From Scolanthus callimorphus (lineage: Eukaryota > Cnidaria > Anthozoa > Actiniaria > Edwardsiidae), in the NCBI GenBank assembly GCA_033964015.1, contig CM066915.1:3762575-3826574 (forward strand): a stretch of DNA of 64,000 bases. The letters are read 5' to 3'. The position numbers were made by a program, and so were the translations under genes. Under the pieces are notes generated by a model. It was not told where the DNA came from. It searched no databases and saw only the letters and a list, made by a program, of their open reading frames with translations. Of the stretch, positions 13,480 to 60,962 are shown piece after piece. Position 1 is the first letter of the stretch; the number at the start of each line of letters is the position of its first letter.

Positions 13480-13970
13480 CCTCTGAGTTGATTGAAACCT
13501 CTGAGTTGATACCTGTTGGACTGCCAAGCAGAAGGTTACTTGAGTAGGAGTCTAGGAGCTTTTCTGTGACTAGGAGCTTGCTGTGTAGAAAACGTTTTGA
13601 TGGCCTTAGCAGCTCTAGCTTCAGCTCTGTAGATTTTATTATCGTCTTCGTCCTCTGCAATATCGTGTTGCTTGTATTCGATGACTGTTTTCCAACCGTA
13701 CAGCGAATCAGCTAGTAAAAATAAGCTTCTGTATTATTTCCTTTATTGCAGATTTAACTTTTTCGAGGGCTTCTTTGGTTTTGTTGTAATCTTTTTGTTC
13801 AAGATAGTATTGGGCGTCTTCGAAGGACTCAAGAGTGCTTTTGTTGAACTTATACTGCTCTTCGTTGAATTTTTACTCTTTTGGCTTTTTGAAGGAAGGC
13901 GTCTCTGTGGTCTTAATTCTTTTAATTTCCATCATTTGTTCAGCGGCGATCTCTTCGTTAGCCCTGTTAA
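13480..13970 (-). pseudogene. Gag-like ORF, C-terminal part, of DIRS-like remnant
   Basis: Read on the minus strand, the frame gives an E/K-rich helical region (ANEEIAAEQMMEIKRIK, then FNKSTLESFEDAQYYLEQKD) followed by an [17 protein letters not shown] stretch and [16 protein letters not shown]. This layout resembles ORF1/gag-like proteins of cnidarian DIRS-type elements as I remember them. Stops and a frame change show decay. The N-terminal part lies on the far side of the 17.5-kb insertion, at 31481-31600. Confidence 0.55.
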
Positions 13971-14022
13971 GGGGTGTCGGAAAACCGAAGATGGGAAAAA
14001 CGAAGATGGAAGACCTAAGAGC

Positions 14023-14411
14023 CCTTTTGGGGTCTTCGTTTTTCCCATCGGAAAAACGAAGATCCTCGTATATTTTCTTTACTAAGCGTGTTTTTGACTT
14101 CAGTAACTATCCTATCCTCTCTCTTAGCCATTCGGGCTGCTTGCCGTGATTTAGGAAACTCTAGGGTGCTCGCTGTGATTTAAGAAACTCTTGGCGCATT
14201 ATTGGACAAAAATTATTTTGGGGTCTTCGTTTTTCCCATCGGAAAAACGAAGACCCTCGTGTATTTTCTTTACTAAGCGTGATTTTGACTTCAGTAAATA
14301 TTCTATCCTCTCTCTTTGTCATTCGGGCTGCTCGCCGTGATTTGGGAAACTCTAGGGTGCTCGCTGTGATTTAGAAAACTCTTGGCGCATTGTTGGAGAA
14401 AAATTATTTTA
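14023..14411. repeat. 190-bp palindromic-unit array, left part
   Basis: Two units of about 190 bp, each with the palindrome ggtcttcgtttttccc/atcggaaaaacgaagacc. Orientation is opposite to the larger part at 22051-23125. Confidence 0.8.
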
Positions 14412-14636
14412 CAGGGTCTGGATGGGGTTAACCGACTAGCGACAAACGGCCTAAAAAATAACCGACTGCCGACAAAACGGGGAAAACGTTACTGACTACC
14501 GACAAAAAAATATTTACTGACTACCGACATTTTATGATTGCCCGTATTATAAACTCTTCATTTCCATCGTCAACATACATAAATCCTAATAAAATATTCT
14601 TGCGAACTCGACATTTACGACACGCGTGCTTCTATA

Positions 14637-15116
14637 TAAAGCCCTGGCCAAATGAAACGCAAGTTCACGCAAGTCGATCCAAGTTGTGACTTGCACAGAC
14701 TTTTGTTCACTTTCGCTGAGGTGGCCAAACGAGATGCAAGTTTTGATGCAGGTTGAGTGGTTTGCATCTTTTAGACACTTTTAGCGCGCTAATGACGACA
14801 TGATCACGGCCACTTTCGAACACTAGAAAAATAAAGAAATATCACCCAGTTTCTTGAAAATAACAGGTAAAAATATAAGTGCAATATTTTCATGGCTTGT
14901 TTTGGTAATAATATTTCATTAATTTGGAAAAAAGGAAAAAAAAATGGAAACTTGCATCAACTTGCGTACACTTAAGATGTGGTGGCCAAACGAGACGCAA
15001 GTTGCGTGAAAATTTGTTCAAAGTGGACGCAAGTGAACACAAGTCATCGCAAGTCATCGCACGTTGGTGGCCAAACGAGCGCAAATCGACTTGCGCTTCG
15101 TTTGACCTGGGCTTAA
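14637..15116. mobile_element. Harbinger-type MITE
   Basis: The element 14640-15113 has ends AGCCCTGGCCAAATGAAACG and its imperfect inverse (GTTTGACCTGGGCT), with TAA duplications at 14637-14639 and 15114-15116. Internal repeats of gtggccaaacgag and acgcaagt. TAA duplications fit PIF/Harbinger. A 58-bp miniature of the same family is at 36420-36477. Confidence 0.75.
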
Positions 15117-15439
15117 GGCGTTTACAAGCAAGTATATGGCTTGCATGATCATGTTCCATGCTCAGCTAGCGGGAAACGTCGTGAACAGGCTCCCCACACA
15201 AAACACAACCATGAGCTGTGTAATGGTTAACAACTACTCCCCGAAGGGGAGGTGAATAGTGGTGGATGTATACCGAGACGCGTATTTACCAAATCAATAG
15301 AATAAAATACGGAGGTTAATAGACCCAAAACGCAGTATCACGCGCGAAACGAGCCGCCATTTTGAGAGTTTTCTCAAAAGAGTATTAACAATTATTCGCA
15401 CTCAGGCTCAGTGATTATTGTAGATTGTTATATAGCGAG

Positions 15440-15912
15440 TGCTCACTCCAACCGAGCGCGCGCTCTTATTGGCTAATTCAAGGTCACATGGTGAAGTACA
15501 AATCAAATATTCCCCGATCAGTCAATATTTCGAAAAATTATTGACTGGTCGGGGAATATTCCTTTCGCGCGTCGCATTTAAGAGCGGGAAAAAAGAGAAA
15601 GTTTATTGTAAACACGCGAGTCTTTTTAAAAACCTTTGCTAATTTTGATAAGTTTTTGCTAATGCAAGAAAATTGTGTTGTTTATGAGTGTTTTCCCTTT
15701 ACATGATGCAGTCGCGCGCAAACTTTGTAACTTCTCTTTTCATTCTTGAAATACATTTGTTTTGACTATAATTGCAGTATATTTTCTGCTTTCGGGAAAC
15801 ACCAGTTTTGTTTCCCTCGAATCTCAATGTTTCCTTCGACTTCGTCTCGGGAAACATCGAGATTCTCGGGAAAACAAAACTGATGTTTCCCTCGGGAGCA
15901 GTCATTAAGTGT

Positions 15913-15947
<35 letters not shown>

Positions 15948-15948
15948 C

Positions 15949-15979
<31 letters not shown>

Positions 15980-16570
15980 ATGGGCTATTGACTCAGAGGC
16001 CATGAGGGCGAGAGGAATAATTGTTTTAGTCAAATCACACTAGTAGGTCAATTTGTATTGCCAAAAAAATGTTTTTGCTCTGGTCATTTGCCATTTTCTG
16101 GCTTTCAAATCCGAAACGTTTCGCTACTAGTAGTAGGCTATAACTTAAAGCCTACTAGTAGCTCAACCAATCAGAACGCAGCATTAATAATAGACCACTA
16201 GTATGATTTGACTAATATTATATAGCTCGTGTTTATTCGATCAAAACGCGCGCTCTGATTGGTTCTATCATGGTCACGTGGTAAGGTACAAACTCAATGT
16301 AGCCCGCGCGGGCTACAATTCAAAAATTGTTGCCCGCGCGGGCTACATCGCCAGAGCGGAAAAATAAAAATAAAAACATGGACTATTTTAACCGTGTATT
16401 TTCTATTTGCTATATAATAAAACACTTAATGACTGCACTCTCGGGAAACAGCGAGTTTTGTTTTCCCTCGAATCTCGATGTTTCCCTCGACTTCGTCTCG
16501 GGAAGCATCGAGATTCTCGGGAAAACAAAACTCGCTGTTTCCCTCGAAAGCAGTCATTAAGTGTATAATA
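15440..16570. repeat. Cluster of palindromic modules
   Basis: Four palindromes in a row: 15505-15562 (aatattccccgatcagtcaa and inverse), 15788-15908 (gggaaacaccagttttg and inverse), 15920-16026 (gggctattgactcagag and inverse), and 16432-16563 (aatgactgcactctcggga and inverse). The second and fourth share core sequence. The CCAAT-type phrase gcgcgctctgattggt accompanies them at 16247. No ORF with motifs. Confidence 0.65.
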
Positions 16571-17414
16571 TTTACCTCGCCGCATAATTTTGCCAGTAAA
16601 TATCAGAGGAAAACGTCAGACGGAATAAATTAATTTATATTTACGCAACTTTGTGACAGCTAAAAGCGCAAGCTTGAAATCATTTTTCTCGTAAGCATTT
16701 TTCACACCAAACGTAGTTGCTTCTTTCGTGTTTTTCGGGATAGCATTTTTTTATTTCAAATGTTTCTTTTTCTCTTAATTCTGCAAATCTGTTTGCAGCA
16801 GCCATCTTGAAAAGAGCCATCTTGAAAAAGATCGCTGCCAGTAAATACAACTAGCAAATATTGCTGAATAAATTAACATTATTGGCCAATCAGCGCGCTC
16901 GAATCTCTATATTTAATGGAAAAATTATACCAATGTTGGATAGCTACTATTTCAGGAACCAATCAGAGCGCCTGAAATTGAAAAATCTCAGCACTTCTCT
17001 CAACAAGATATATGGAAAAGCGGAAGGTGCGAGCTCTGCTATGCGCCGTGCTACGTTTTGCTGGAGGGAGGAAGACCAAAACACGTACTCGCACGGTTGG
17101 GATTTTTCGGCCACTAGATGTGACGTTTATTTTTCAACTCGTAAATTATTGTAAATTGGATTACAGTAGTAACTGATTATTTACTGATTTGCAGCGCTTA
17201 CTGCTCAGAAAAATGCAAAATATCTTAAAAGAGACTGAGAGTAACTAACAAGGTTTTAAATTTTAAATTTTATTACTTTTGAATTATTAACTTAGATTTA
17301 CCGACTACTAAAAAGTTTAACTGACTACCGACAAATTACTGAAATTTTAGCTGACTACCGACAAATTAGTGAAATTTTAACCGACTACCGACATGCGGAC
17401 CCCCCCCCCCCCCC

Positions 17415-17743
17415 TGTTGCGTTTAGCCCCATAGCCATAGTAGTTACACAAGATAGCATACAAGAACTTGACAGGATATTCACATATATAACAACAACAA
17501 CTGATTTATTTCATATAGCTCAATCATATTTATATACAAGTTTCTAGGTGTATCAAGATTGGAATTCACGTACGATTATTTAGAGTTGCATTCTTTTGGT
17601 TCCGGCAAGTCCTACATAGGAAATTACATACAGGTATCATAATAATTGTGATAGCACTAATCTATCTAATCTAAAGTGGTGAATCATGACTTAGATAGAG
17701 TAATCAGATAATGGATACGTAATATCAGGCACGTATTCTAACA
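17415..17743 (-). repeat. Copia 3' LTR
   Basis: 329 bp, tgttgcgttt...attctaaca on the plus strand, inserted in a run of C (17400-17414). Confidence 0.92.
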
Positions 17744-17783
17744 CCCCCACTTGCTCTGATGTTACGAACCTTCAACAAAAAAA

Positions 17784-20700
17784 TTAATTTCCCATTATAA
17801 AAGTTTTGAACTTTTCCAGCTTAGCTTTTGTGGCTGGTTTTGTAAAAATGTCTGCTACATTGTCCTCAGTTGGGACATACTGAACTTTTACATTTCCACT
17901 TTGAATTTCTGATCTGATAAAGTGGTATTTGATGTCAATGTGCTTCGATCTTTGATGGTTAACTGGATTCTTAGCCAGATTAATTGCTCCCTGATTGTCG
18001 ACATGAATCGTTACTTCTTCAACCATAATACTCATGTCAGTACATAGCTGTTTAAAAAATTTAGCTTCTTGTGCAGCATTAGCTAGTGAAATGTATTCAG
18101 CTTCACAAGTAGATAAAGCTACAGTTTGCTGCTTGCGGCTTTTCCATGAAATTAACGGTCCATTCTCAGTCAACTGAAAATTATATCCAGTTATGCTGCG
18201 TCTATCTTTCACAGATGCTCCCCAGTCCGAATCACACGAGCCTGTAAGTATCAAGGCTGATTCCGATTTGCCAAATTTAAGGCCTTGTTCCCGTGAGCCT
18301 TTGAGATATCTCAGTACATGTTTTGCCATACTGAGATCTGACTGAGTTGGTTTTGCCATATTCTGTGAAAGTTTAGTCACAGTGTAACACAAATCAGGTC
18401 TAGTACCTGTCATTACATATATTAAACTCCCCACAATTGCTCTATACAATCTCGGATCATCCAATTCGCGCGCTTCTTCGTCGTTACTCTTTTCTGCTCC
18501 TAGAGCGCACGGCGTTGCCTTTGGTTTGCAATCTGACATTTCAAATTTCGAGAGGATTTTATCTATGTATTGTGTCTGGCTCATCTCGATTGAATCTTTG
18601 TTGCATTTGAAATTTGTTCCCAAAAACCACGAAAGTTTGCCAAGATCTTTCATTTTGAACTTTCTGCACAGAGCCTCTTTAACGCTTTCCAACAAAGTTA
18701 AAGTAGTTGCAGAAATTATGATATCATCTACCCAGATGATCAAAATAATCAATCCATTTTCCTCTGAATTTCTAGTGTACACGCATGGGTCTGCGAGCGA
18801 TTGAGAAAAGTTTTCACTTAGCAAATAGTTATGAAGCATGTTGTTCCAATTTCTCCCGCTTTGTTTCAAACCATATAGAGATTTCTTTAACTTACAAACT
18901 AGTTTCTCTCCGTTTTCTCCGCGCTTCTCAAAGCCTTCCGGTTGTTCCATATAAATTTCGCAGTCAATTGGCGCATTTAGATAAGCTGTCTTAACGTCCA
19001 TTTGATGAGTAATCATGTCATTCTGCACTGCTGTTTGCATAAGCATTCGTACTGAACTCATGCGAGCAGTAGGCGCAAACGTTTCCTGATAGTCTATGTC
19101 TGCGATTTGTGAATAGCCTTTAGCTACGTAGCGTGCTTTATGTGTCTCTTCTCTATTAGGTCCCGTTTTCACGGCAAAAACCCATTTCCCCCCCACTATC
19201 TGTCTACCCTCGGGTGGCGTGACTAACTCGAACGTGTCATTGTCAATTAGAGCTGTCATTTCGTCATTCATGGCCTTTTGCCATTTTGGCATCTCTTTTG
19301 AAATCAAAGCATCGTCATAAGTGGTCGGGATGTTCGCGACTCGATAACAGTAGTCTACAGTGTTGCTAACTTCGTCTAAGTCACTGTTCATTGCATATTC
19401 GTCAAAACGCTTAGGTTTGTTGCGAATTCGTCCGGGATAACGACGTTCTAGTTCGTGTTCAGTACTCTCAGACTCCGTCACGTCCTCCTCTTCTGTTGTT
19501 TGTTCTGTTACGTCAGTGTCAACAGTTGTAGGTGGGGTCGGTAACACACTCTCGTCTTCGTCTATCTTAGGCACGTAAACTTTGTTTTGTTCAAGAAATT
19601 TTACGCATCGCGCTCTTTCTACAACGTTTCTCTCCGGGTAATAAACAAGGTATGCCGGACTATCTCGGTCATAACCTACGAAAGTGCCTTCCTTACTGCG
19701 CGCTTCTAATTTCTTCGCGTTCTGAACATAGGCATAACACGTAGAGCCAAAAACATGCATCCTACTCACATCCGGTTTCTTTCCGATAAGGGCCTCATAA
19801 GGCGTTTTACCTAATCGCGCGTTAAAACAACGATTACGAATGTATGCGGCTGTCATTACTGCGTACGTCCACAATTCCTTAGGTAATTCAGACTCTAGCA
19901 AAAGACATCTCGCCATTTCAAACAGGCTTCGCCACATCCTTTCTGCAGTACCATTCTGGTGCGGAGAATGCGGCGCACTTGTCTCGCGCTTAATGCGATT
20001 TTTGCGAAGTAAAGACTTAAACTGTTTACTTGTAAATTCACCCCCGCCATCCGATCTAATGCGCTTTGGTTTACCAAATGGAGCGATGTCAGCAAGAAAC
20101 TTCTGCGTCGCTTCTAGAGTATCACTTTTCTGTTTCAGAAAATACACCATGTTAATACCGGTAAAATCATCTACAAAACACAAAGCATATCGGAAACCTC
20201 CCTTTGCTACGGGATCTATCGGGCCGGCCAAATCGCAATGCACAAAATCTAAAGGTGCTTTAGCCCTATCATCTGGCTTACGGCTCCGAGTTTGGCACAT
20301 TTTGCCTTGCGTACAAATAGCGCAATCGAGCTGTTCATCATTCGCAATTTTCATGCCTTCAACAACATTTTCCAATTTGCGTAAATCTTGAAAATTACAA
20401 TGACCCATAATTTGGTGCCACTGCATTAAAGAACTCGCATTATTGTTTGAAGATGAAATGCTGTTTAGGTAATACAAACGGCCTTTCTGCTCGACCTCAA
20501 ACATTGTGCCATCTGGTGCTTTAAAATACTTTGCGTCCTTATTAAGACTGACACTCGCGCCCTTTGCAATGGCAGCAGAAACTGAAAAAATGTTTTGGTT
20601 GTATGACGGAATGTACAGAGCATTGTTGAGAATAACATCTTGTAAATTTCCATTTACATCGAAAAGCTTTACTTTGGCATTCCCTTTTCCCAAAACTACA

Positions 20701-21677
20701 TTGGCCTTACTTCCATCTGCCAATTCAATGTAATGACCATTTGCGTCAAAATTTTCATCAAAACTCACAAATTTTTCCCGCTCTGTTACAATGTGGCTCG
20801 TAGCACCACTATCTAGTAAGAGATTAGTGACTTTCTTACCATTCCTATTTGTTATCTGTTCTTCACTAAAAGTAAAGGCGAAATCATGTTCGTCCTCCTC
20901 GGCACTCTTCTTTGCGGAGTCGCCTGATCTCTGTTGCCCTTGTGACTGACCTTGGGGCTTCCTGCTGCGACAGTCTCTTGTGTTGTGTGATACAGTCCTA
21001 CACTTTGCACACCATTTGCTAGACTCCTTGCTGTAGCAGTCAATACTTTTGTGGCCTTTTCTTCCACATTTGTAGCAGTTTCCCTGGAATTTTTGCTTTA
21101 AAGTCATGACGCTTTCCTCGTCATTCCCAGGGGTCCTTCGGCAGCTTTTCTCCGTCTCCTCATAGTTTCGGAGAGCTGTTTTAAACTCGCTGAAGGTCAT
21201 CGGTTTGTCCTTCTGCGCTGCCACCGTCGCGAAGGTTTTGTAGCCATCTGGCAGGCCTTTTAGAGCCATGGCTACCAGTAGCCCATCGCTTATTACTTCT
21301 TCGGCGGCTTTCAGGGCGGTAGATGCTTTCTCCGCTCGGGGGATGTAGTCCGTTGTAGACTCGCCATCCTTCATCGTCAGGGAAGTCAACTCAGTATATA
21401 GGGCAATTACTCTTGGCTTCCCCTTGCCCTGGTAGTGCTCTCGCAAGACACCTAGGGCTTTCCTGCCGTCGTTATTGGCCTCTCGTATCACGAGAGCCAA
21501 ACTTCTGTCGTCCAAGCACTGGACCAACTCCGCGAACGCATTTGCGTTCTTTTCTTCGTCAGGGGCCGTGGTTTCTCCTTCCTTTGGTATAACCACATCG
21601 TACAGCTTCTGGAGGCGCATGTAGCCAAGGAACTTTACTTCCCAGAGCTCGTACTTGCTTTCGTCTCCACTGAACAT
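17784..21677 (-). CDS. Copia gag-pol polyprotein
   Basis: The frame is open from 21770 to 17784 (1328 residues). I favour the ATG at 21677, which follows the primer site and gives MFSGDESKYELW, a usual Copia gag start. In 1328-residue numbering: gag ~30-230; CCHC knuckle CYKCGRKGHKSIDC ~232-245 and a second Cys/His cluster to 267; protease DSGATSH ~320; integrase zinc site H...H...CAIC ~451-486, then D513, D574 and E610 (DD35E spacing); RT with DVKTAYL ~926 and catalytic WVDD ~1013; RNase H with CDSDWG and TCEAEY. No stop or frameshift. The polyprotein would be cut by its own protease and act in cytoplasmic particles and the nucleus. Confidence 0.93.
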   Translation of the reverse strand: MFSGDESKYELWEVKFLGYMRLQKLYDVVIPKEGETTAPDEEKNANAFAELVQCLDDRSLALVIREANNDGRKALGVLREHYQGKGKPRVIALYTELTSLTMKDGESTTDYIPRAEKASTALKAAEEVISDGLLVAMALKGLPDGYKTFATVAAQKDKPMTFSEFKTALRNYEETEKSCRRTPGNDEESVMTLKQKFQGNCYKCGRKGHKSIDCYSKESSKWCAKCRTVSHNTRDCRSRKPQGQSQGQQRSGDSAKKSAEEDEHDFAFTFSEEQITNRNGKKVTNLLLDSGATSHIVTEREKFVSFDENFDANGHYIELADGSKANVVLGKGNAKVKLFDVNGNLQDVILNNALYIPSYNQNIFSVSAAIAKGASVSLNKDAKYFKAPDGTMFEVEQKGRLYYLNSISSSNNNASSLMQWHQIMGHCNFQDLRKLENVVEGMKIANDEQLDCAICTQGKMCQTRSRKPDDRAKAPLDFVHCDLAGPIDPVAKGGFRYALCFVDDFTGINMVYFLKQKSDTLEATQKFLADIAPFGKPKRIRSDGGGEFTSKQFKSLLRKNRIKRETSAPHSPHQNGTAERMWRSLFEMARCLLLESELPKELWTYAVMTAAYIRNRCFNARLGKTPYEALIGKKPDVSRMHVFGSTCYAYVQNAKKLEARSKEGTFVGYDRDSPAYLVYYPERNVVERARCVKFLEQNKVYVPKIDEDESVLPTPPTTVDTDVTEQTTEEEDVTESESTEHELERRYPGRIRNKPKRFDEYAMNSDLDEVSNTVDYCYRVANIPTTYDDALISKEMPKWQKAMNDEMTALIDNDTFELVTPPEGRQIVGGKWVFAVKTGPNREETHKARYVAKGYSQIADIDYQETFAPTARMSSVRMLMQTAVQNDMITHQMDVKTAYLNAPIDCEIYMEQPEGFEKRGENGEKLVCKLKKSLYGLKQSGRNWNNMLHNYLLSENFSQSLADPCVYTRNSEENGLIILIIWVDDIIISATTLTLLESVKEALCRKFKMKDLGKLSWFLGTNFKCNKDSIEMSQTQYIDKILSKFEMSDCKPKATPCALGAEKSNDEEARELDDPRLYRAIVGSLIYVMTGTRPDLCYTVTKLSQNMAKPTQSDLSMAKHVLRYLKGSREQGLKFGKSESALILTGSCDSDWGASVKDRRSITGYNFQLTENGPLISWKSRKQQTVALSTCEAEYISLANAAQEAKFFKQLCTDMSIMVEEVTIHVDNQGAINLAKNPVNHQRSKHIDIKYHFIRSEIQSGNVKVQYVPTEDNVADIFTKPATKAKLEKFKTFIMGN

Positions 21678-21687
21678 GAGCGTCCTC

Positions 21688-21701
21688 CTGGGCCCATAAC
21701 C
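21688..21701 (-). promoter_or_regulatory. Copia primer binding site, initiator tRNA-Met anticodon arm
   Basis: Directly next to the 5' LTR the plus strand reads ctgggcccataacc. This equals the anticodon stem-loop of initiator tRNA-Met (contains CAT), so element RNA would pair with the middle of that tRNA rather than its 3' end. Drosophila copia is known to prime from a 5' half of initiator tRNA-Met in this way. The site also lies inside the open reading frame. Confidence 0.8.
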
Positions 21702-22030
21702 TGTTGCGTTTAGCCCCATAGCCATAGTAGTTACACAAGATAGCATACAAGAACTTGACAGGATATTCACATATATAACAACAACAACTGATTTATTTCA
21801 TATAGCTCAATCATATTTATATACAAGTTTCTAGGCGTATCAAGATTGGAATTCACGTACGATTATTTAGAGTTGCATTCTTTTGGTTCCGGCAAGTCCT
21901 ACATAGGAAATTACATACAGGTATCATAATAATTGTGATAGCACTAATCTATCTAATCTAAAGTGGTGAATCATGACTTAGATAGAGTAATCAGATAATG
22001 GATACGTAATATCAGGCACGTATTCTAACA
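21702..22030 (-). repeat. Copia 5' LTR
   Basis: 329 bp, one base different from 17415-17743. The polyprotein frame stays open upstream through its inner end, with ATGs at 21770, 21725 and 21719, so the LTR could encode a short N-terminal extension. Confidence 0.92.
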
Positions 22031-22050
22031 CCCCCCCCATCCAGACCCTG

Positions 22051-23125
22051 ATTTCGGAAAAACGAAGATCCCAAAATATATATTTTTTCCAATAGTGCGC
22101 AAAGCGTTTCCTAAATCACGACCCGGATGTCTAAGAGAGAGCATAGAATAGTTTAAATACTAAAGTAAAAAACAAGCTAGTATTTAAGAAAATATACGAG
22201 GGTCTTCGTTTTTCCGATGGGAAAAACGAAGACCCTAAAATATTTTTTCTCCAATAATGCGCCAAGGGTTTCTTAAATCACGGCGAGCAGCCTAGAGTTT
22301 CCTAAATCATGGCAAGCAGCCCGAATGACCAAAAGAGAGGCATAGAATAGTTACTGAAGTCAAAATCACGCTTAGTAAAGAAAATAAACGGGGGTCTTCG
22401 TTTTTCCGATGGGAAAAACGAAGACCCCAAAATAATTTCTCTCCAACAATGCGCCAAGAGTTTTCTAAATCATGGCGAGCAGCCTAGAGTTTCCCGATCA
22501 CAGCAAGCAGCCTGAATGACCAAAAGAGAGGATAGAATAGTTACTGAAGTCAAAAACAAGCTTAGCATAGAAAATATACGAGGGTCTTAGTTTTTCCGAT
22601 GGGAAAAACGAAGACCCTAAAATAATTTTTCTCCAATAATGCGCCAAGGGTTTCTTAAATCACGGCGATCATCCTAGAGTTTCCTAAATCACGGCAAGCA
22701 GCCCGAATGGCAAAGAGAGAGGATAGGATAGTTGCTGAAGTCACAATCACGCCTAGTAAAGAAAATACACGAGGGTCTTCGTTTTTCCCATGGGAAAAAC
22801 GAAGACCCTAAAATAATTTTTCTCCAATAATGCGCAAAGAGTTTCCTAAATCACGACGAGCACCCTAGAGTTTCCTAGAGCACGGCGAGTAGCCCGAATG
22901 ACAAAGAGAGAGGATAGAATATTTACTGAAGTCAAAATCACGCTTAGTAAAGAAAATACACGAGGGTCTTCGTTTTTCCGATGGGAAAAACGAAGACCCC
23001 AAAATAATTTTTGTCCAATAATGCGCCAAGGGTTTCTTAAATCACAGCGAGCACCCTAGAGTTTCCTAAATCACGGCAAGCAGCCCGAATGACAAAGAGA
23101 GAGGACAGAATATTTACTGAAGTCA
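22051..23125. repeat. 190-bp palindromic-unit array, right part
   Basis: About 5.6 units (palindrome starts near 22199, 22391, 22582, 22771 and 22964), each the reverse complement of the units at 14023-14411. Spacer phrases such as caataatgcgccaag and gcagcccgaatgac recur in each. The array ends abruptly at gaagtcaaa, some 400 bp downstream of the PHD gene's stop. The same palindromic phrase is also in the TIRs, so the units may be transposase-binding repeats (inference). Confidence 0.8.
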
Positions 23126-23289
23126 AACCCCACGGGAATTTGACATGTTTAGCTTTTGAAATGTCAATTTCCCCACCCTTGGAGCTCCATTACGGATCAA
23201 ACTCCCGCCCCTGGGGATCCCAGACCAGTGTAAAGGCGTTCATGATATATTATAAGCCCAAAACCAGTCACTACCACTTTACAAAGTTG

Positions 23290-23295
23290 TTTATT
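23290..23295 (-). terminator. Candidate polyadenylation signal of PHD gene
   Basis: Minus-strand AATAAA about 220 bp beyond the stop at 23513, with T-rich sequence on both sides. No transcript evidence. Confidence 0.35.
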
Positions 23296-23512
23296 TCATA
23301 TCAACATTTTGACAAATAATGTACACTTGATGGCCCATGGCTCATACACTGTATCCACCTAACAAGTACGATTCTCATAAATGCTGTTCTGCTCTTCTTC
23401 TGTGTACAACGTTCCCAGCACCATACTGGTATTAAAACATAGTACACACACAAGGAGTTGACAAGTGCAATCGATTTCAATTTTGTATCTGCCCACAGTC
23501 ACAAACCTTACT

Positions 23513-23695
23513 TTACATTGTGTTAACAGCAACACAGAATGTGCAACTCCAGAACATTTGGTCATCCAAATCGTCTGAAGATGCACAGATTTGATGAAAC
23601 CAATGATCACAAGCATCGCACTGAATCCACTTGACAACCATTTCTCCATCTTGAAACTCCACAGGCTCTTCAAGTTTGCAGTATCCACAGAGTAC
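23513..23695 (-). CDS. Exon 8: PHD finger and stop
   Basis: After acceptor ttctaag the frame gives CGYC, CDAC, HWFHQIC and WSCTFC, the Cys4-His-Cys3 layout of a PHD finger, which in other proteins reads histone tails. The frame then ends. It joins exon 7 in phase 0. Confidence 0.75.
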   Translation of the reverse strand, partial: VLCGYCKLEEPVEFQDGEMVVKWIQCDACDHWFHQICASSDDLDDQMFWSCTFCVAVNTM

Positions 23696-26600
23696 CTTAG
23701 AAAAGGAAGTGTACACCTGGTATATTAGTACTTCAAACTTCATATAAATAAATCACTTGAAATTACATGGTGTGCTCAATCTACATAACTGTATGACATT
23801 TCTACACAATTCATTGCTTTTGTCGTCTTTTTGTGGCCATTCGTTATGAATGCTATGGCTTAATTCGGCAGTGCCCAGTATGCCCAAGCAACACTTTTTT
23901 ACTATACAGTAGTTTATGTATTCACCTTATTCGTGTTTCTTTTCCTTCTTTTTTTTTCTTTTCCTTTTTTTTGTATGACATTTCTACACAATTCATTGCT
24001 TTTGTCGTCTTTTTGTGGCCATTCATTAGGAATGCTATGGCTTAATTCGGCAGTGCCCAGTATTCCCAAGCAACACTTTTTTACTATACAGTAGTTTATG
24101 TATTCACCTTATTCGTGTTTCTTTTCCTTTTCCGAGTCTGGGCTGCCTTAGCAGCCCCTCTTTTGCGATTGTCTTGGACGGTTTGAAGGTGGTTAAACCA
24201 CAGCTGGACCTAACACAATAAACAGATCACAACCGATATACATGTCATGTAGACAATTTGTATTAATTCTGAAAAAAAAGGGATTCCATTTCTAGCATTC
24301 ATAAGTACCGATTTTAAAAATATGATATTTTTCTAATGTTATGATTACCTCGTCTGTGGGAAGGTTCACTTCTTTTGCCGCTTTTTCCAGGCTTTTGGGC
24401 TCCTTCTCAAACAGCAACTTCAAGACGTCACTCGGAGGTGCAAAGGCAACTTCATTCGAGGCTAATTCGCAATCGACCAACCGTTCATCAGGCTTCATGT
24501 AGTGCCCTGCGCATACAGTCTTGCCTTTACAATCTGCACAGTCCAGATTATCATATGGCCTGTTAAATAGACAGAAGCAATTAAGCCTATAAAAGTAGAA
24601 AGATAAGTCAATTGCCAAAGTTATGATTATTTGATTGACTGCTCTCTGGTTCTTAACTTACCTGTTTGGATCCACAACTGGAAGCGGAGTGAAGCTCAGG
24701 GGAGGCCCACCATCATACCACCTCTCCTCCTCGGCTGGTTTCCCCATCTTGCATAACGGGTGTATGCAGTCAGGTTGGTAGCACAGGAACAGGTGAAATA
24801 CATACTTTGGTGGCATCCCAGCCACGAGATGCCGATTTCGTAGCATCCAAATATCGTTTATCCATTTGTACGTCTCTGGGTGTTGATCTTTCAACCTTTT
24901 CAGGTCTGCTGCCTTTCCTTTCAGGTAGTCCTTTATCATATCTCTTAGCCCCTGGTAAGCTGTACTATCTGTCCCCTTATAAAGGTGGATCCGGGTGGTT
25001 GCACATGGAGATTTGCCAACCCTGCTAATGTAAATATCTATTGCATCACTGAGATTTTCTTTCAGTTTAATGTCATTGACCTTCCCGGTTTGGGTGTCCA
25101 GACAGGAACCATTGAGGGTTGATGGGATGAACAAATTGCTGTGACCAAGAGCAAGACACCCATTTTGTAACTCCACCCTGTTTCTGTTACTTGAGCCACT
25201 ATCTCTGGTGGTTACAATGAGCACTTTAGATGACTTTTCTAGGTGATACTTGGTCCACCAAAACTGTACCTCCTTGTGCGATGGCCCCTCATCGTGTCCT
25301 CCATCTACTCTGACACATATCTTGCTTTTCCTCTCCCCGGTCACATGATTATAAAACGCTGGCTCCACTTCCGGATTTTTCTCAATTTCATTGACATCAT
25401 GGGCATGCTGTGCAGGATTTTTATGGTGGAGTGGAACAGCTTTAACAATTCCAGCACACATCTCTGCTGTGGTGTTGGTACTAGAAAAATTGTAAGATGT
25501 TGTCTGACGTGTTGATGGGTACTTGTTAACATAGTCCGTTTTTGTTGTAAGCGGGACACCATCTTTCATGCATAAAGTTGCTCTCTTGTTATGGGTGGCT
25601 AAGGTATCCAATCGAAACCCCGCCTGGTCATCTCGGTTATGTTGAGAATATCTGTGCCATCCTTCAGCTGCAATAAATCCAGGGCCCTATAGAATGCTGA
25701 TGACCAGTGCTTATCGGGATTATATCGTATGGTAAAACCCTTTCTAGCTCGACGGCATGTGACATTGGCGAGACCTTTGTAGCGTTTTGCAGACAGTCTT
25801 CTCTTGTTTCTTGCAACACACAGTTGCACCACAGTCCCATAACCAAATTTCCTTTGATAAATTCTTTCTAGGTGCTCTTTTATCCTTTGGAAAGTTGCCT
25901 TTTTCTCCACCTTACGATTGCCATCAAATGTGAGGATCCCAGTTCTTCTCCAGCTATCTGCCCCAACTCCGGTGCTTTTCACATAATTTTCGATGGTAGA
26001 ACCGATATCTGGGCATTCTTTTAGAATTTTCCCAACATTCTTTCCTCTCCTTCTTCTTAGCAATCTAGCCTCTGCTATGCTTTTGGCAGCTTTGCGTCTT
26101 GCATTTATTCTTAACTGCTTTATCTTTCTTGAAATAATTTCACGTGCTTCAGGTTGCAATGGGTCATGAATGTTTCCCAAATCCTCACTTTCTTCTGTTT
26201 CAGATAGTATAATGTCATCATCCAATGCATTTGACTCATTTTCTTGTAGCCTTTCTGAAAGCAAAAATGCTTGTCTGCTTTGTTCTATGATAGACTCCTC
26301 CTTTTCATTCAATTTCAGTACATGTATTTCTCCACTAAAGTCTAGGAGGATCTGATCTATGACAGCTTTGGTGTACCCAGTGAGTTTTGTTTTAATAACA
26401 TCTACAAAAACAAACCAATTAAGTTCACATGCTCTTAGCAAGTCCATTAGTTCATGAGAATTCTGATATACCATTCCGGTATCTGTTACCTCTTTGTTGA
26501 GAAAGAGCTGATGACTTATTTCACTAGCTGCTGGGTTGCCATTACTTTTGGGCCATTCCATTTTTAAGCCGAACCCCCCCTACGGAAGAGCTCATTTTCT

Positions 26601-29600
26601 TTAGTAACCCCCTCGGAAAAAAGAGCCCTTTTTGGATTGCACCCCCTCGGAAAAACCCACGGAAGAGGAAGTTTTGTTATTGCACCCCCTCGGAAAAAAC
26701 CACGGAAGAGGCTTTTTCTTATTGTACCCCCTCGGAAATACCGACGGAAGAGCGTTTTTTTCGGTTTGACCCCTCGGAAATGGCCATTTTGCTATACCCC
26801 CTAGGAAAACTTCTTCCGTAGGGGGGGGTGCGGGTAAAAAATGGAATGGCCCTTTGTTCACTGCATTGATGTCTTGTTCAACAAATTCCCCACTAGTGAT
26901 TAATCCATCTCCTACATCCTCACGGCATCTGTTATTCACTGGTGAGTTGGCAAGCTGCTGTCCAAGTGCCCCAGTGCTCTCACTCTCATCTTCTGTATCT
27001 GTCTCACTTCCTTCTTCACTATCATCACTGTCTTCACTGTCTATTTCCACACCAAATGATGACAACAAAGCTCTCTCTTGTATATTTGCAATAGAGTCCA
27101 TTGCCTCCCTAATTTCTCTGGCTTCTCGAAGAGCATTTTCCACCCTCATCTTCCTGCTTTGTATATCATCAAAACCATAGTTCTGTCTTAACTGTGAATT
27201 GCTTTGCCCTGTGATGCAGTAGCAACAGCATAGGTGATTCTCTCTCGTTCTGAATCTGATTCAGCTAAAGACAAAACTTCCTTAATGCAACCTACTACCC
27301 TGGCGTTTGTCTCTTGACAAGAGTTGCTCTTACTTTCTGCTTTGCCCAGATGCAGCAGCAACAGCATAGGTGATTCTCTCTCGTTCTGAATCTGATTCAG
27401 CTAAAGACAAAACTTCCTTAATGCAACCTACTACCCTGGCGTTTGTCTCTTGACAAGAGTTGCTCTTACTTTCTGATCTGGACAAAAGGCTTCTAGCCAA
27501 TTCTAAGTTATTGTCCTTTGCTACAAGGAAAATAGCTTGGCTGTTATTTTCTTTTATTCTGATGGCAGCAACAGGGAGTTGTAGCAGTTTCCTTTTGGCA
27601 TCACTGGACTTATACTTAACACCAGGGCTGGTACACATAGAAAATGCCTCGTTAAGTCTAATGTATCCATCATCTTCTATGCGTTTTGCAACAGCTATTA
27701 GCCCACTGCATGGCTTGCAAGGCTGCATGGCATGCTCAGTAATACAGATTTTATCCTTTGTGGCAACAAAACGTGCTAAAGTGAAACCTTCTAGTGTTGA
27801 AACATCAGTAAAATCATCAAGTTTGACATATTGGGAAAGTGTCTTAAAACTCTTGAACAAAGTTACATCATTGTCAATCCCCCTCAAATAATTATGAGGG
27901 GGGTTTCCTGAAAATCCTGCATGGATGTCTCTTTAGGATCAGCATGGCTAGTGTGCTGGGGACCAGGTGCTTTCTCTTTCACTGGCAATAGTGGAACTTG
28001 GGAAGTCATAGGCTGGGAAGACACTTCAGGAGTATTGCTGAGGTTTGTAGTTGTAGGACTTTCATGCTCGGGAACCACAGAAGTAGATGTCTCATTGGGG
28101 CTGCTGATACCGTTCTTGAATGCTTCAAAAACAGACTGATTTGACACTTTCTGATCAACAGTAGTTTTCCGCTTATTTTTGTACCATTTGGACCTCTTTT
28201 CCTTTCTCTGAAACCCCTTGAGCTCTGTCTGGTTTTGAAAAACCTCTTTCCTTAAGACTGACATTTCCTTTTGCAGTCGGTCACAGGTCTCCCAATCTTT
28301 TGCAGCCTGGGCCTTGCTTTGATGAAGTTGTTTATATTTCATTTGTTGCGTCTTCCCTTCAATATCTTCTAGAAGTTGAGAAATGTGTTGTTTTCTAAAT
28401 TCTTCTGAAGAATGTGCTTTCTTTGGGGCGACTGGTTCATCAACACATCTGGATCGTGATTTTCCTTTTTTAAACACAGAGATACTTCCAAGTCTTACAG
28501 ACTCCTTTGCTTGGTTATAGAGGACATCCCTCTTTTTGAGAAGACTAGGATTCTCAACAGCCAGTTTTCCAGCTGCTTCATTTACTGACAATTCATATGG
28601 TGTTAATGCTTTGTCTCTGGACACATTTCCATAAATCCTGGCTGCCATTATCACCTCTTCTACTGTATCATTTACTGTTTCCTAGGATATACAACAATAT
28701 GATAGAATAAATGACAATAATTGGTAAAAGATCATAATAAAAAATAAATTGGCATCATGGGTAATAAGTAGAAGTCGTGCCTAAAATTATAACAGTTTGT
28801 ATGAGAATGGAAGAGGGTCTGATGCCCGTTCTTAATTTGCATAGATTGATATTTTTAATTTTATTTCTTTGTTTTCTTGATCTTTGGAATTCCACATCTG
28901 ATCAAACACACTGTCATGTTTTTATATACCTACTATGTGAAAAGAGGGAGAGAGAAAAATACTAAAGTAGACTAATGTGACAGAAATCTAGAAATGTGAA
29001 CAGGGTGGAACACCAAATGAAATATATTCCAGACATTTGCTTGATTCCACTAATTTATCATTCCCTCAAGGATTGTACCTCCAGGACTGTATCTAAAATT
29101 CCCTGGCTCGAAAACAAAATGAGCAGTAGTACAGTTACCTCTTGTCTTGCAGGACATATCAGGCACCCAGTAATGTGGACAAGAGCAAGCCCCAGTGTTA
29201 AATTTAATGACTAAATATTGTCCCCCAGTTTACAGCAGATATAAAATCCCCCCAATAATGTCTACTACTCCAGGGGCGTAGCCAGGGGTGGGGGGTCACA
29301 ACCTTCATGTTTACTGTATTTTTCATCCCCAAAGGGGGGGTCAGGACCCAGGACCCCCAACCCCCTAGCTAGGCCCCTGCATCCACCCCTTTTCCCAAGC
29401 TGCAGGAGGACCCTGTTTCAGCAACCACCATGGAAATACTTCTATGCTTAAAGCAAGGCTCAACCAAAAGGAATAACACAAACCTTTCACTGTAGGGCCA
29501 ATCTGCACCTTTCCCCCAGTTATCACAAGTGTAGCTTGTTGAGATGTTGAACCAGCTGATTATAAGAAAAAAAGTTTGTTACTATGGTTTTGTTAAATTC

Positions 29601-31051
29601 TGATGTTACTTTTGCTATTAAAAAGCTTATTTCATTTTACTGCTAAAAAGGGAGCAACCATCAAGAAGACCACACCAAATTGAGGATGGAAATAAATTTT
29701 TATTGTCATTTCCTTGGCTATAAAGCTTTTACATGACAGGCCTAAATATCGTGAGCCCTATAAATAAACCATTTGCATTAAAACTAACCTGAATTTGTTG
29801 TTGAAGTAGAAACTGTGCCTTGATTACTGTTGGCATTATTTATTGGTGCATTAGACACAGAACTTGATGGCTGTAAACATTTGTCAAACAAACAAGATTA
29901 GCACCTGGGAAAAATAGGATCAAAACTTCAAAAGAGAACAGATTAATTAGTTATTATCATCTTAGAAATACATAGCTGCTCTCTGCTTACATGACTGTAA
30001 AAGTAAAATAAATTATTTCATTGTGATAATCATAGACATGCATACAGTCAAACATTTTGTAGAGCTATGACAGGTGACCCAGGCTCAGTATTTGAATCGC
30101 AGCATACAATGTCTATATGGGGAATTAGAGATAATCTATATGGGGTGATCTTTGGGTATAAAAATGTCTAAGAAATATGCTCACCTTTGCAATAACACGC
30201 AGCTTTGCTTTATCCTCAATGGCAGCACTGGCCTCCAAGTCTATAAACTCCTGCCATTCTTTGTTGTAAATTTGGACAAGGACTTCCCCGTCAATACCAA
30301 ATGCATTCTTTATAGCCAATAGCCAATTATTTTCTCCAAGTAAGATAATTTTCCGCCTCTCACCAAACTCAACAATAACCTGAGAATAAAGACATACTTT
30401 TTCAAAATCCATGTCAAAAAGGTTCACCTTGAATCTTTGTCAAAAATCACTATTCAAAATCTATCACATTCTTATTGTTAATAATAAATATAGGACAAAG
30501 TCAACCTAAAACATCAAACGAATGGAAAAATACAACTCGAATTTTAGATAATGTTTCCTTGATCATGTTGAGAAATTAGGAAAAATATTTCAATGTGGGA
30601 TTGCAAAGATTTTGGTGGATACAAATTTCAGCGCAGCCACAAGGAAATGTTCGTTTCAAAGCACCCGAAATGAGAATTATTACAGTATATATTATTCGTC
30701 TCAAGTCTTTGCAATTCTGTTTCTATGATTGCATTTTCTAAACAGGATTCTAAAGTACATCCAGATTGAAATTATCAACTCAGGTTATCAAGGCATGAAA
30801 TATAAACTTTTGACTTTTCGCCATGACTACATGAAGAGAATCTATAAAACGAAACGAGTGGTGAAAACTAATGCTAAAAAGCAGGACATTTTCACAAAGA
30901 AAATTGAGTTTTTCTAGGAAAATTCTCCGAAAATATAACCAAGAATAATTACTTGACACAAATCTTCAAATCCAGATTACGGAAGGATGTCTAAAATCAC
31001 AATTTTGTCTTTTAAAAAACATCAAGAAGATATTACCTTTCGTTCTGCCAT
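23513..31051 (-). CDS. PHD-finger, transposase-like multi-exon gene, disrupted
   Basis: Eight exons join in frame on the minus strand: 31051-31037 (MAERK), 30379-30185, 29870-29789, 29555-29484, 28674-24662, 24559-24349, 24209-24108 and 23695-23513. Domains in order: a ubiquitin/PB1-like module; a Ser/Thr-rich linker; a coiled coil (SEEFRKQHISQLLEDIEG onward); an acidic stretch; a central domain with VDGGHDEGPSH and TTRDSGSSNRNRVELQNG; a Cys cluster; a basic segment; a PHD finger. Exon 5 is broken by a G-run frameshift, a 136-bp tandem duplication, a MITE and a 1-base frameshift near 25610. Its position inside TIRs suggests it is the element's transposase; a captured host gene is the alternative. 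Function unproven. Confidence 0.65.
24108..24209 (-). CDS. Exon 7 of PHD gene, basic segment
   Basis: 34 codons: VQLWFNHLQTVQDNRKRG, then AAKAAQTRKRKR, a likely nuclear localisation signal. Donor aag/gtgaat. Its last ~20 bases and donor are repeated in the next intron at 23926-23947 as part of a ~157-bp duplication (23791-23947 and 23973-24129). Confidence 0.65.
24349..24559 (-). CDS. Exon 6 of PHD gene
   Basis: Acceptor aacag and donor gag/gtaatc. It joins exon 5 in phase (GATCCAAACAG + GCCATAT) and encodes a Cys-rich CADCKGKTVCAGHY, then a helical segment ending LPTDE. Cysteine spacing suggests a zinc-binding site. Confidence 0.65.
24662..28674 (-). pseudogene. Exon 5 of PHD gene: coiled coil to DDE-like domain, with lesions
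   Basis: Open segments are 27887-28674 (coiled coil), 27330-27887, 26856-27149 (acidic), 25611-26549 and 24662-25611 (central domain). The frame changes at a G-run near 27896-27902, at a tandem duplication (27202-27337 against 27340-27473), at the MITE 26550-26852, and by one base near 25610. Coding sense on both sides of each lesion is clear. Conserved acidic residues in VDGGHDEG could be a catalytic site, but I cannot place a full DDE triad. Confidence 0.6.
26547..26855. mobile_element. GGGCC MITE inserted in exon 5 of the PHD gene
   Basis: The element 26550-26852 has TIRs GGGCCATTCCATTTTT and inverse. TTT is duplicated at 26547-26549 and 26853-26855. Removing it and one TTT joins the coding frame exactly (DINAVNK to SNGNPAA). 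Internal repeats of cccctcggaaa and acggaagag match the split copy at 817-6615. Confidence 0.85.
28700..29480. other. Intron 4 of PHD gene
   Basis: Between exon 4 (29484) and exon 5 (28674). AT-rich, with GC-rich remarks at 29270-29370 (aggggggtc phrases) and no further exon that I could support. Confidence 0.5.
30185..30379 (-). CDS. Exon 2: ubiquitin/PB1-like module of PHD gene
   Basis: 65 codons between acceptor ctcag and donor aag/gtgagc, phase 0 on both sides. It continues from MAERK of exon 1 (ATG at 31051) to give a beta-rich start (VIVEFGERRKIILL), a helix with LLAIKNAFGI, and ending KAKLRVIAK. The pattern looks like a ubiquitin-fold interaction module; the name is by pattern only. 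Confidence 0.6.
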
Positions 31052-31254
31052 CGTTCTCCACGAGAATGCCGAGAAGAGAAAGACGCAGGAATATTGTCTC
31101 CAGGTGGTTTCTGGGTTTTTTCCAAGATGGCGGAAGCCAGTTCCCAGGACTCTTCCAGATGGCAATCGAGTCAAATTTCCCACCCTGGGGACTGCTGTAG
31201 ATGTCAAAATCACCACCCTCGGAGAGCTTTAAAAAGTCAAATCCCCCTGGGTTG

Positions 31255-31271
31255 CCCCCCCCCCCCCCCCC
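31255..31271. repeat. Poly-C run near right TIR
   Basis: 17 C residues, among degenerate copies of gtcaaatttcccaccctggg (31159, 31203, 31233). Similar phrases occur at 23130-23220 near the array end, perhaps subterminal repeats of the element. Confidence 0.5.
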
Positions 31272-31480
31272 ACCCTGGGGCAAACCATTGATAGGTGCAT
31301 TAGCTCGTCCATGTTTGCTAAAATTAAGTTACATGAAATCACGAAGAGCAGAGGGCAGGAACACGAGTACAGTCACATTTCATGGGGGTCTTCGTTTTTC
31401 CTTTTGGAAAATCGAAGAGGGCTCTTAGGTCTTCCATCTTCGTTTTTCCCATCTTCGTTTTTCCGACACCCCCCTGTTAA

Positions 31481-31600
31481 GGCCAGAGATGCTCGAAGAA
31501 ATCAATGCAGTCATTTGAGAAATAAGTTCATGATTGCTCGCTTGAATAATGTCTCTGAATTGGCCTACATGGCGTTGACTGTGTGAAGGCTGATCCTAGA
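31481..31600 (-). pseudogene. Gag-like ORF, N-terminal part
   Basis: On the minus strand an open frame reads through FRDIIQASNHELISQ and TALISSSISGLNR. It continues in the same frame into ANEEIAAEQ at 13970 once the insertion and one 8-bp duplication are removed. The split frame itself is evidence for the insertion. Confidence 0.6.
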
Positions 31601-37400: not shown

Positions 37401-40400
37401 TCCGCCCTTTCTGAAACTCTGAAACCGCCCCTGCACAGCGCAAAACATAACGGCGTAAGAGTACAAACCAAGTGTAACATCTTTACCACAATATGGCCAC
37501 TAAAAAGCGACATTCAAAAATCTTTATACACATTTGATTCCTTTTTTAGAAACGTAAGTCGATAATTAACGCAATCATTAATGAGATAGTTCTGGACCTC
37601 GTATCTGTCACTTGTCTGGTCACTTGTCTGGTCACTTGTCTGGTCACTTGTCTGGTCACTTGTCTGGTCACTTGTCTGGTCACTTGTCTGGTCACTTGTC
37701 TGCTGGTGTAGTGCGACCGCTACTTGAGGAAAAAAATGTACGTTTGCTTTTTTAAAACCATATCTAGAAAATTTGACTACTAAAATTCTCTGGAAAACGG
37801 GCAATCTTTTCTAAGTGCTACTCCAGCCTAAGTCTGATAAGTTAAAAAAATGTAATTCAGTAGCAGGACTTGCTCTATTGATGATGCTATAATTTATAGA
37901 ATATTATAAAATAAGTAACATAGTAGGCGCGCTCTGATTGGTCGAGAGCTGTGTATTCTCACATTATAAACGCACGGTAGATACATTTCTATTTTATAAA
38001 AGCAAGAAAAAACGGATTTCAATGGTTCATTTAAGCGATAAAAAGATGAGCGGATTTCAGTGGTGTATAACGTGAAAAACGCACGAGGGAAAGTGGAAAA
38101 ATACGATAATCAACGTTTGAAACTCACGAGCCATAATTAAACCACAGAAATCCGCCGGTTTGTATTGCTTAAGGTAGTAGAGATACTAGACCAACTGTAC
38201 TCATGGTCCTAGCAACAGTGTTAAACTTCGCATATTCGTTTCCTGCAGGCAAAAAGGCCACGTCTAGATTTGCTGCCTGATAATTGGAAACGCTGGACTG
38301 TAGTTGGAACTGCCCTTATCCACGTGGTAATGCCCCGCCTACTACCTTATATTGATATGGAACTACAGACAGCATTCAACACCTATAAACCAAGTCACCC
38401 GTCCTACATTGTTTGGGCAAAATCATTCCTGAGACCACATATGGCCAAATTTACTGCCTTCAATGAGGAATGCGATCCAAGCGGAGTGCTGAATCTCTTT
38501 TCGTTTGTGAGAGACGGGCCAAGTTCTTACCATTTCTCTACTGCTATACGTGATGCTGCTAGATTGGTTCGCGATGAAGTCCGAAATCCTTGGGCACACT
38601 GCAATTTGAATGAGTGGGATGACAGCAGGTTCCAGGACAGCTTTAAGTTTATGGATCAACTGCTAAGGGAATGTGGCCTGACAAGTGCAGCGGATGAGCT
38701 GGATGACTGGCGACAAGGAGGTACGCAATATGTCTTATAATATGCTAATATAAGGGCATGTGGTCTGACAAGTGCAGCGGATGAGCTGGGTGACTGGCGA
38801 CAAGGAAGTACGCAATATGTCTTATAATATGCTAATATAAGGGCATGTGGTCTGACAAGTGCAGCGGATGAGCTGGGTGACTGGCGACAAGGAGGTACGC
38901 AATATGTCTTATAATATGCTAATATAAGGGCGTGTGGCCTGACAAGTGCAGCGGATGAGCTGGGTGACTGGCGACAAGGAGGTACGCAATATGTCTTATA
39001 ATATGCTAATATAAGGGCGTGTGGCCTGAGAAGTGCAGCGGATGAGCTGCATGACTGGCGACAAGGAGGTACGCAATATGTCTTATAATATGCTAATATA
39101 AGGGCATGTGGTCTGACAAGTGCAGCGGATGAGCTGGGTGACTGGCGACAAGGAAGTACGCAATATGTCTTATAATATGCTAATATAAGGGCATGTGTTC
39201 TGACAAGTGCAGCGGATGAGCTGGGTGACTGGCGACAAGGAGGTACGCAATATGTCTTATTATATGCTAATATAAGGGCATGTGGTCTGACAAGTGCAGC
39301 GGATGAGCTGGGTGACTGGCGACAAGGAGGTACGCAATATGTCTTATAATATGCTAATATAAGGGCATGTGGTCTGACAAGTGCAGGGGATGAGCTGGAT
39401 GACTGGCGACAAGGAGGTACGCAATATGTCTTATAATATGCTAATATAAGGGCATGTGGTCTGACAAGTGCAGCGGATGAGCTGGGTGACTGGCGACAAG
39501 GAGGTACGCAATATGTCTTATAATATGCTAATATAAGGGCATGTGGTCTGACAAGTGCAGCGGATGAGCTGGGTGACTGGCGACAAGGAGGTACGCAATA
39601 TGTCTTATAATATGCTAATATAAGGGCGTGTGGCCTGACAAGTGCAGCGGATGAGCTGGGTGACTGGCGACAAGGAGGTACGCAATATGTCTTATAATAT
39701 GCTAATATAAGGGCGTGTGGCCTGACAAGTGCAGCGGATGAGCTGGATGACTGGCGACAAGGAGGTACGCAATATGTCTTATAATATGCTAATATAAGGG
39801 CATGTGGTCTGACAAGTGCAGCGGATGAGCTGGGTGACTGGCGACAAGGAGGTACGCAATATGTCTTATAATATGCTAATATAAGGGCGTGTGGCCTGAC
39901 AAGTGCAGCGGATGAGCTGGGTGACTGGCGACAAGGAGGTACGCAATATGTCTTATAATATGCTAATATAAGGGCGTGTGGCCTGAGAAGTGCAGCGGAT
40001 GAGCTGCATGACTGGCGACAAGGAGGTACGCAATATGTCTTATAATATGCTAATATAAGGGCATGTGGTCTGACAAGTGCAGCGGATGAGCTGGGTGACT
40101 GGCGACAAGGAAGTACGCAATATGTCTTATTATTATATGGCTAAGATACTACGCGCGCTCTGATTGGCTGTTGACAGGCTTGTATTTCCCCGTACAAGCC
40201 GTGTCCGATACGGATTTTTCCCGCCGGTGTGCTTGTTTACATTTTTAAGCAAAAAGCCATATAATAAAACTCTTATTAACCTCACTTGCTCGGTCCGTAC
40301 AGTAAAATATCAGCCCTCGATCGTTTTGTTTTTGTACAAACCTCGCCGAAGACGGCTCGGTTTGTACAAAAACAAACGATCTCGGGCTGATATTTTACTG

Positions 40401-60302: not shown

Positions 60303-60378
60303 TGACCTGATAGCTCAGCTGGTAGAGCATCGGATGTACAATTCTGAAGGTCGTGGGTTCGAATCCCTCTCGGGGTCA
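60303..60378 (+). tRNA. tRNA-like gene, copy 1
   Basis: Box A TAGCTCAGCTGG and box B GGTTCGAATCC are intact, and a T7 run follows as Pol III terminator. The acceptor and T stems each have a mismatch, and the anticodon loop seems to have eight bases (TGTACAAT), so the anticodon cannot be fixed. It lacks one base before box A compared with copy 2. Could be a true tRNA variant, a tRNA pseudogene or the head of a SINE. Confidence 0.5.
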
Positions 60379-60593
60379 GAGATTTTTTTCTCTTTCTCCG
60401 CTTACTAGGGCTGACGCTCAGGAGCACACATGGGACCATTTCATTAGCACGTTAGCTTTCACACAAGGTTAATTCCTTATCTCCACTCTGTTGAACTTAG
60501 TGCTACGCGGCCACAGGCTTGCCTGAACATCTACATATATTCACTTCATTACCGCAAACATAACATCTAATTTACCCCGACCTGCTCCCAGTC

Positions 60594-60671
60594 TGACCTG
60601 GATAGCTCAGCTGGTTAGAGCATCGGATGTACAATTCTGAAGGTCGTGGGTTCGAATCCCTCTCGGGGTCA
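60594..60671 (+). tRNA. tRNA-like gene, copy 2
   Basis: Second unit of a ~292-bp tandem repeat, with D-arm GCTCAGCTGGTTAGAGC and a T-run after cggggtcagaga. Best formed of the three. Same odd anticodon arm. Confidence 0.55.
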
Positions 60672-60885
60672 GAGATTTTTTCTCTTTCTCCGCTTACTAG
60701 GGCTAACGCTCAGAAGCACACATGGGACCATTTCATTAGCACGTTAGCTTTCACACAAGGTTAATTCCTTATCTCCACTCTGTTGAACTTAGTGCTACGC
60801 GGCCACAGGCTTGCCTGAACATCTTCATATATTCACTTCATTACCGCGAACATAACATCTAATATTCCCCGACCTGCTCCCAGTC

Positions 60886-60962
60886 TGACCTGGATAGCTC
60901 AGCTGGTAGAGCATCGGTTGTACAATTCTGAAGGTCGTGGGTTCGAATCCCTCTCGGGGTCA
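60886..60962 (+). tRNA. tRNA-like gene, copy 3
   Basis: Third unit. Differs by tcggttgtac in place of tcggatgtac in the anticodon arm. Boxes A and B and the T-run are kept. Confidence 0.5.

Follow-up and report, generated by a model that had tools for sequence, protein, structure and literature searches.

What is the 17.5-kb unit that lies between inverted repeats on contig C5 of Scolanthus callimorphus: one giant transposon with a gene of its own, or several elements lodged in one another? The question arises in a 64,000-nucleotide stretch of DNA (the window; C5:3762575-3826574), in which a sequence-only reading had recognized one large transposon carrying a spliced PHD gene. We find a nested stack instead, very probably composed of a foldback transposon, a CAGGG-ended element containing a Ty1/copia retrotransposon, and an unrelated gene-bearing DNA transposon. 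This assignment is built on direct observation of the element ends and their duplications, of MITEs and relatives, of empty sites and of three copies of the stack.

The outer ends, GGGTGTCGG and CCGACACCC, form a 58-bp inverted pair with 97% identity, in agreement with the matching TIRs first noticed in the letters. The word GGGGTGTCGGAAAA occurs exactly at 13971 (+) and 31472 (-) and at no other site in the window with up to 2 mismatches. Both the inverted and the direct repeats described earlier are real, but the duplication had been taken as 8 bp. The 8-mer CCTGTTAA is indeed present on both flanks, with 3 occurrences when considered alone, which is its chance frequency; the perfect direct repeat, CCCTGTTAAG (13962-13971 and 31472-31481), spans 10 bp, which rules out an 8-bp duplication and sets the limits of the outer element at 13972-31471. 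A search of the genome (597 Mb, 302 contigs) gives 34 exact 14-mer ends (12 forward, 22 reverse) versus 3 for a reversed-pattern control, so that other copies with these ends do exist, as had been expected. The stretches examined cover 23 of the 34 ends, the window's own two included. Among 15 two-ended copies (the C5 trio counted once; L022 and L025, whose second end is unassigned, and one further end pairing of L009 left out), ten, at 10 different sites and 1.8 to 7.6 kb long, are directly adjoined by a perfect 10-bp duplication. In the other five, L020 and L021, which have common flanks, match at 9 of the 10 duplication bases, in L017 a perfect 10-mer is set off from the end by a 3-bp spacer, and L027 and L009 have no adjoining duplication. 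When left and right flanks are paired across different copies, agreement at 8 or more of the 10 bases is found in 2 of 210 pairings, both of them cross-pairs of L020 and L021. The first base of the 14-mer is part of the repeat, the end apart from it being GGGTGTCGGAAAAACGAAGATGG, and the sample is biased to C at that base; the opposite side is unselected and still matches.

The whole stack is present on C5 near 3.776, 3.906 and 4.060 Mb with identical flank words, the left flanks being 97.5% identical over 472 bp and the right flanks 100% over 500 bp. These three stacks are one insertion, copied by duplication. The empty site that the sequence-only reading had called for is found in a C7 paralogue (L037), in which a single ACCTCGTAAG stands at the place of the window's two copies of CCCTGTTAAG, albeit with 3 mismatches to the 10-mer. 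In a second paralogue, on C5 near 3.644 Mb (L036), the element is missing, as are 12 bp at the target (about position 837); this gap may be the scar of an excision or a simple deletion. The same reading had relied on a reading frame that rejoins in phase when the element is removed. The longest stop-free stretch across the join does occur at the true offset, with 70 codons versus 50 and 38 on the minus strand and 147 versus 124 and 126 on the plus strand; the argument is nevertheless weak, and the empty sites are the stronger evidence of insertion.

The outer element is a foldback transposon, which we read as non-autonomous. A clean copy (L015) measures 2499 bp, with 982-bp arms that are 99% complementary and without the gene; its arms are made up of a terminal unit of about 170 bp, a unit of about 300 bp, and subrepeats with the same 191-bp period as those of the window. 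In the window, the left-arm remnant (13972-14411) retains the terminal repeat and two 191-bp subrepeats, the right arm contributes inverted 191-bp subrepeats (22051-23127), and the right terminal unit occupies 31300-31471. The foldback thus accounts for just about 1.69 kb of the 17.5-kb unit, in place of the transposon of about 9.9 kb that had been estimated after removal of nested insertions. The window's TIR looks short because this copy has lost about 1 kb of its left arm, which is kept in its siblings L011 and L013.

As to family, the outer element best fits the Mutator-like foldbacks, an assignment that we infer, since the enzyme was not found in the foldback copies examined. Mutator-like elements are described, in the available text of PMC6446971, as having long TIRs and duplications of 8 to 11 bp; the 982-bp arms (99%) and the perfect 10-mer of 10 of the 15 copies agree with both features, whereas the transposase of that family was not found here. 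None of the 7 scanned ORFs of foldback stretches encodes a transposase, Mutator-like or other, and 2 of the 7 match reverse transcriptase. Reverse-transcriptase fragments also lie inside the 7.6-kb foldback copy L010, as another nested insertion. The Mutator/Foldback family Tm1 of root-knot nematodes, as far as the accessible part of PMC3169594 describes it, has long subrepeat arms and duplications of 8-10 bp, mostly 9. It resembles the outer element, by description and not by sequence, in its variable-length, foldback-like composite arms, its MITE-like forms and its nested insertions; the outer foldback differs in its 10-bp duplication and in that no transposase-bearing copy was found. Membership in another superfamily with duplications of near length (Merlin, hAT or P) is a rather unlikely alternative to the Mutator-like one. 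The 8-bp duplication of hAT does not agree with a perfect repeat of 10 bp, no longer. The foldback ends begin with GG, as in Merlin, and the ORF scan is in keeping with an origin outside the Mutator-like elements, but Merlin duplications are 8 or 9 bp (PMC8101967), and the combination of long subrepeat arms with 8-10 bp duplications is already known in Tm1.

Within this Mutator-like foldback candidate lies the CAGGG-ended element (14412-22050), whose ends, CAGGGTCTGGATGGGG and CCCCATCCAGACCCTG, we take to be hAT-like. It has no clear duplication; its flanks are C-runs, in which a duplication would not stand out. Inside it is a Ty1/copia retrotransposon on the minus strand (17415-22030), with a gag-pol frame at 17784-21797 (minus strand) and LTRs at 17415-17743 and 21702-22030 that are 99.7% identical over 332 bp. 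The window also holds tandem repeats of other kinds: a large array of 87-bp units, about 96% alike, at 38664-45896, interrupted near 40130-40430; tandem 292-bp units at 60304-60962 that contain three tRNA-like genes, for which ARAGORN reports an anticodon of four bases and names no amino acid; and, at 61222-63488, about 4.9 repeats of a 461-bp unit that are 99% alike.

The gene, which had been read as belonging to the outer element, lies in a block (23128-31299, minus strand) that is a transposon in its own right; by comparison with the MITE stretches examined, its ends fall at 31299 and a little to the left of 23128. At 31299 the block ends with the TIR TGCACCTATCAATG, in the context TGCACCTATCAATGG, and is followed by a TTA target copy (31300-31302) and unbroken foldback sequence; L015 there reads CCAAGTTAGCTCG. 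The 20-base end is found at 144 genome sites with up to 2 mismatches, the reversed-pattern control giving 0. In a sample of 20 stretches, drawn from about 100 listed end sites, both ends are present in 19, and 16 of these measure 337-486 bp. A 3-bp duplication flanks 18 of the 19 (TAA in 10, TTA in 7, TCA in 1) and is lacking in the remaining one, and longer or shorter repeats were not seen among them. All 20 stretches match part of window 23128-23247, and all except L055, which matches its last 69 bp alone, match the 5' end of the gene block far past the TIR; the other terminus lies 32-59 bp past the 3' match in 19 of the 20. Since the matches involve both ends of the block, these MITEs derive from the gene-bearing element by internal deletion. 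The far terminus of the gene transposon, past 23128, is missing from the window together with the foldback's unit of about 300 bp; both gene-block junctions of the window recur in the siblings L012 and L014. Because none of the three stacks retains the left terminus of the inner transposon or its left TTA, the nesting rests on one junction together with the MITEs and the relatives. A lone TIR end of the same family, TGCACCTATCAATG, stands at window position 9589 and is probably a decayed relic.

These boundaries bear directly on the model of one large transposon, in which the spliced PHD gene would be the element's own transposase and gene-less copies would be deletion derivatives. All three C5 copies do have the gene between both outer ends, with the duplication outside, but they share their flanks and represent a single insertion; the outer duplication is 10 bp long and that of the gene element's MITEs 3 bp; in the MITEs, one end of the gene block is joined to the other with no foldback sequence at the boundaries; and the relatives of the gene element have other TIRs. 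Gene-less outer copies, which the sequence-only reading had itself named as contrary evidence, are what we find: among 20 stretches (L009-L028, up to 10 kb each), the gene matches just in the siblings L012 and L014. We therefore consider this model very unlikely. The presence of the gene block's ends in MITEs flanked by 3 bp leads us to reject the PHD gene as the foldback's own.

What, then, does the gene of the inner transposon encode? Its main frames lie on the minus strand within 24130-28681 (27884-28681, 27330-27932, 25599-26579, 24658-25686, 24292-24657 and 24130-24210), and the PHD finger exon is at 23516-23695 on the same strand (Pfam PHD, E 6e-05, 23.4 bits, just below the cut-off of 24). 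The window's copy is damaged, with its core split over two frames, and the region contains tandem duplications at 27200-27475 and 23790-24129. By its predicted fold, the product resembles a DDE transposase, which also has homeodomain-like and PHD parts. Its predicted core is RNase H-like, with the conserved acidic residues located on that predicted fold; the first 34 of 50 VIA rows are DDE enzymes, at a modest Z of 8.9, and the nearest solved folds are those of SETMAR and Mos1 (Tc1/mariner). With Foldseek, neither model has a match that reaches E <= 0.001 versus PDB, nor does the second versus viral models, and the first rows include unrelated proteins (NurA, Argonautes, herpesvirus terminase nuclease); a profile search of PDB sequences returns weak homeodomain and LAG1 matches alone, at E 0.36 or worse. 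Judged from the predicted structure, the protein would be the catalyst of its own family's transposition. Among 60 family members, PHD is found in 20 and a homeodomain in 14. No catalytic family appears in NCBIfam or among the Pfam families listed (25 of 50). The closest named match is from Montipora capricornis (P0004, 70% identity), and named family matches come from Montipora, Paramuricea and Dendronephthya. Many relatives (P0149-P0173), located on short contigs, have equal score and length, mostly 949 aa, as would be seen with a single organism rich in young copies.

In the genome, 26 segments match the protein core. Copies on C10, C11 and C5 (11.81 Mb) are 98.7-99.1% alike and have 60-61% identity to the window protein. 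The TIRs of the C10 and C5 relatives start with TGCATGTATCAATG and, read from the flanks, are accompanied by TAA duplications; beside the C5 relative its own target occurs again, inverted and unoccupied, and the C11 relative shows a single end. The open frame of these relatives reaches 1148 codons in C10 and 1333 in C11 and contains a 60-bp coding minisatellite (about 5026-5598 in L029, the same stretch in L030 and L032). Minisatellite copy number varies among these three otherwise nearly identical loci. No close full-length two-ended copy of the window's gene subfamily was found in the genome; a C101 segment (94%) was discarded as a second full copy, being a fragment that spans window 24581-27921 alone. 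That the gene is a captured host chromatin factor, as the name 'Chromatin modification-related YNG2' of relative P0129 and the PHD and homeodomain counts might suggest, is scarcely credible against acidic residues conserved on an RNase H-like predicted fold, nearly identical relatives of which two have both TIRs and TAA duplications, and MITEs that bear ends of the same type.

The placement of this PHD transposon among superfamilies was considered on the same features. PIF/Harbinger elements make a 3-bp TWA duplication, as seen here in 17 of 19 stretches (TAA or TTA), but the Harbinger nuclease is absent among the Pfam families listed (25 of 50) for the 60 members. Tc1/mariner elements provide the solved folds nearest to the predicted core, at the modest Z given above, and duplicate TA (PMC7386202, in the part available); the PHD transposon differs by its 3-bp target and its homeodomain-like and PHD parts. 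Rehavkus, as described in the accessible text of PMC6446971, has a PHD finger in its transposase, a 9-bp duplication and a minisatellite before the 3' TIR. The PHD finger and the minisatellite are points of likeness, whereas the PHD family has a 3-bp duplication and, in its C10, C11 and C5 relatives, a minisatellite within the reading frame. Three further candidates were set aside, each on the portion of its source available: the coral CMITE elements, another family with TTAA duplications (PMC2872659); KolobokP, in whose text the word PHD is absent (PMC9587614); and IS481EU, from parabasalids and with other duplications (PMC10045372). For Zator, the available portions of PMC4455052, PMC7386202 and PMC8533490 give neither duplication length nor alignment. 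No published description of the PHD transposon or of the foldback was found in the literature accessible outside Repbase Reports and most subscription journals. We tentatively suggest, at less than even chances, that the PHD transposon represents an as yet unnamed animal cut-and-paste superfamily, with TWA duplications, TGCA-ended TIRs that include G-rich stretches, a DDE transposase of mariner-like fold of about 1000 aa with homeodomain-like and PHD parts, and many MITEs of about 400 bp, in which the PHD may steer insertion by histone marks.

Based on the above data, we propose an order of events, which we infer, as we do the foldback's enzyme. A non-autonomous foldback would have inserted at CCCTGTTAAG, making a 10-bp duplication, mobilized by a transposase from another source, most likely of Mutator-like type. 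The CAGGG-ended element would then have entered the foldback and would itself have been hit by the Ty1/copia retrotransposon, and the gene-bearing DNA transposon would have entered a TTA in the foldback's right arm with 3-bp duplications. A deletion would have taken the inner transposon's far terminus along with a piece of about 300 bp of the foldback arm, and the host segment would have duplicated afterwards, so that the stack is now present three times. The PHD gene would serve its own family and the MITEs, not the foldback.

What appeared to be a giant transposon of 17.5 kb is thereby resolved into an ordered stack, and its gene is assigned to its real owner, a multi-copy family whose catalytic part is matched by none of the libraries searched. 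The exact ends, 3-bp target and MITEs of the PHD transposon make its mobility directly testable. Since the catalytic part of the family goes unrecognized and one of its proteins bears a chromatin-factor annotation, coral genomes may contain transposons of this kind that are taken for host regulators.
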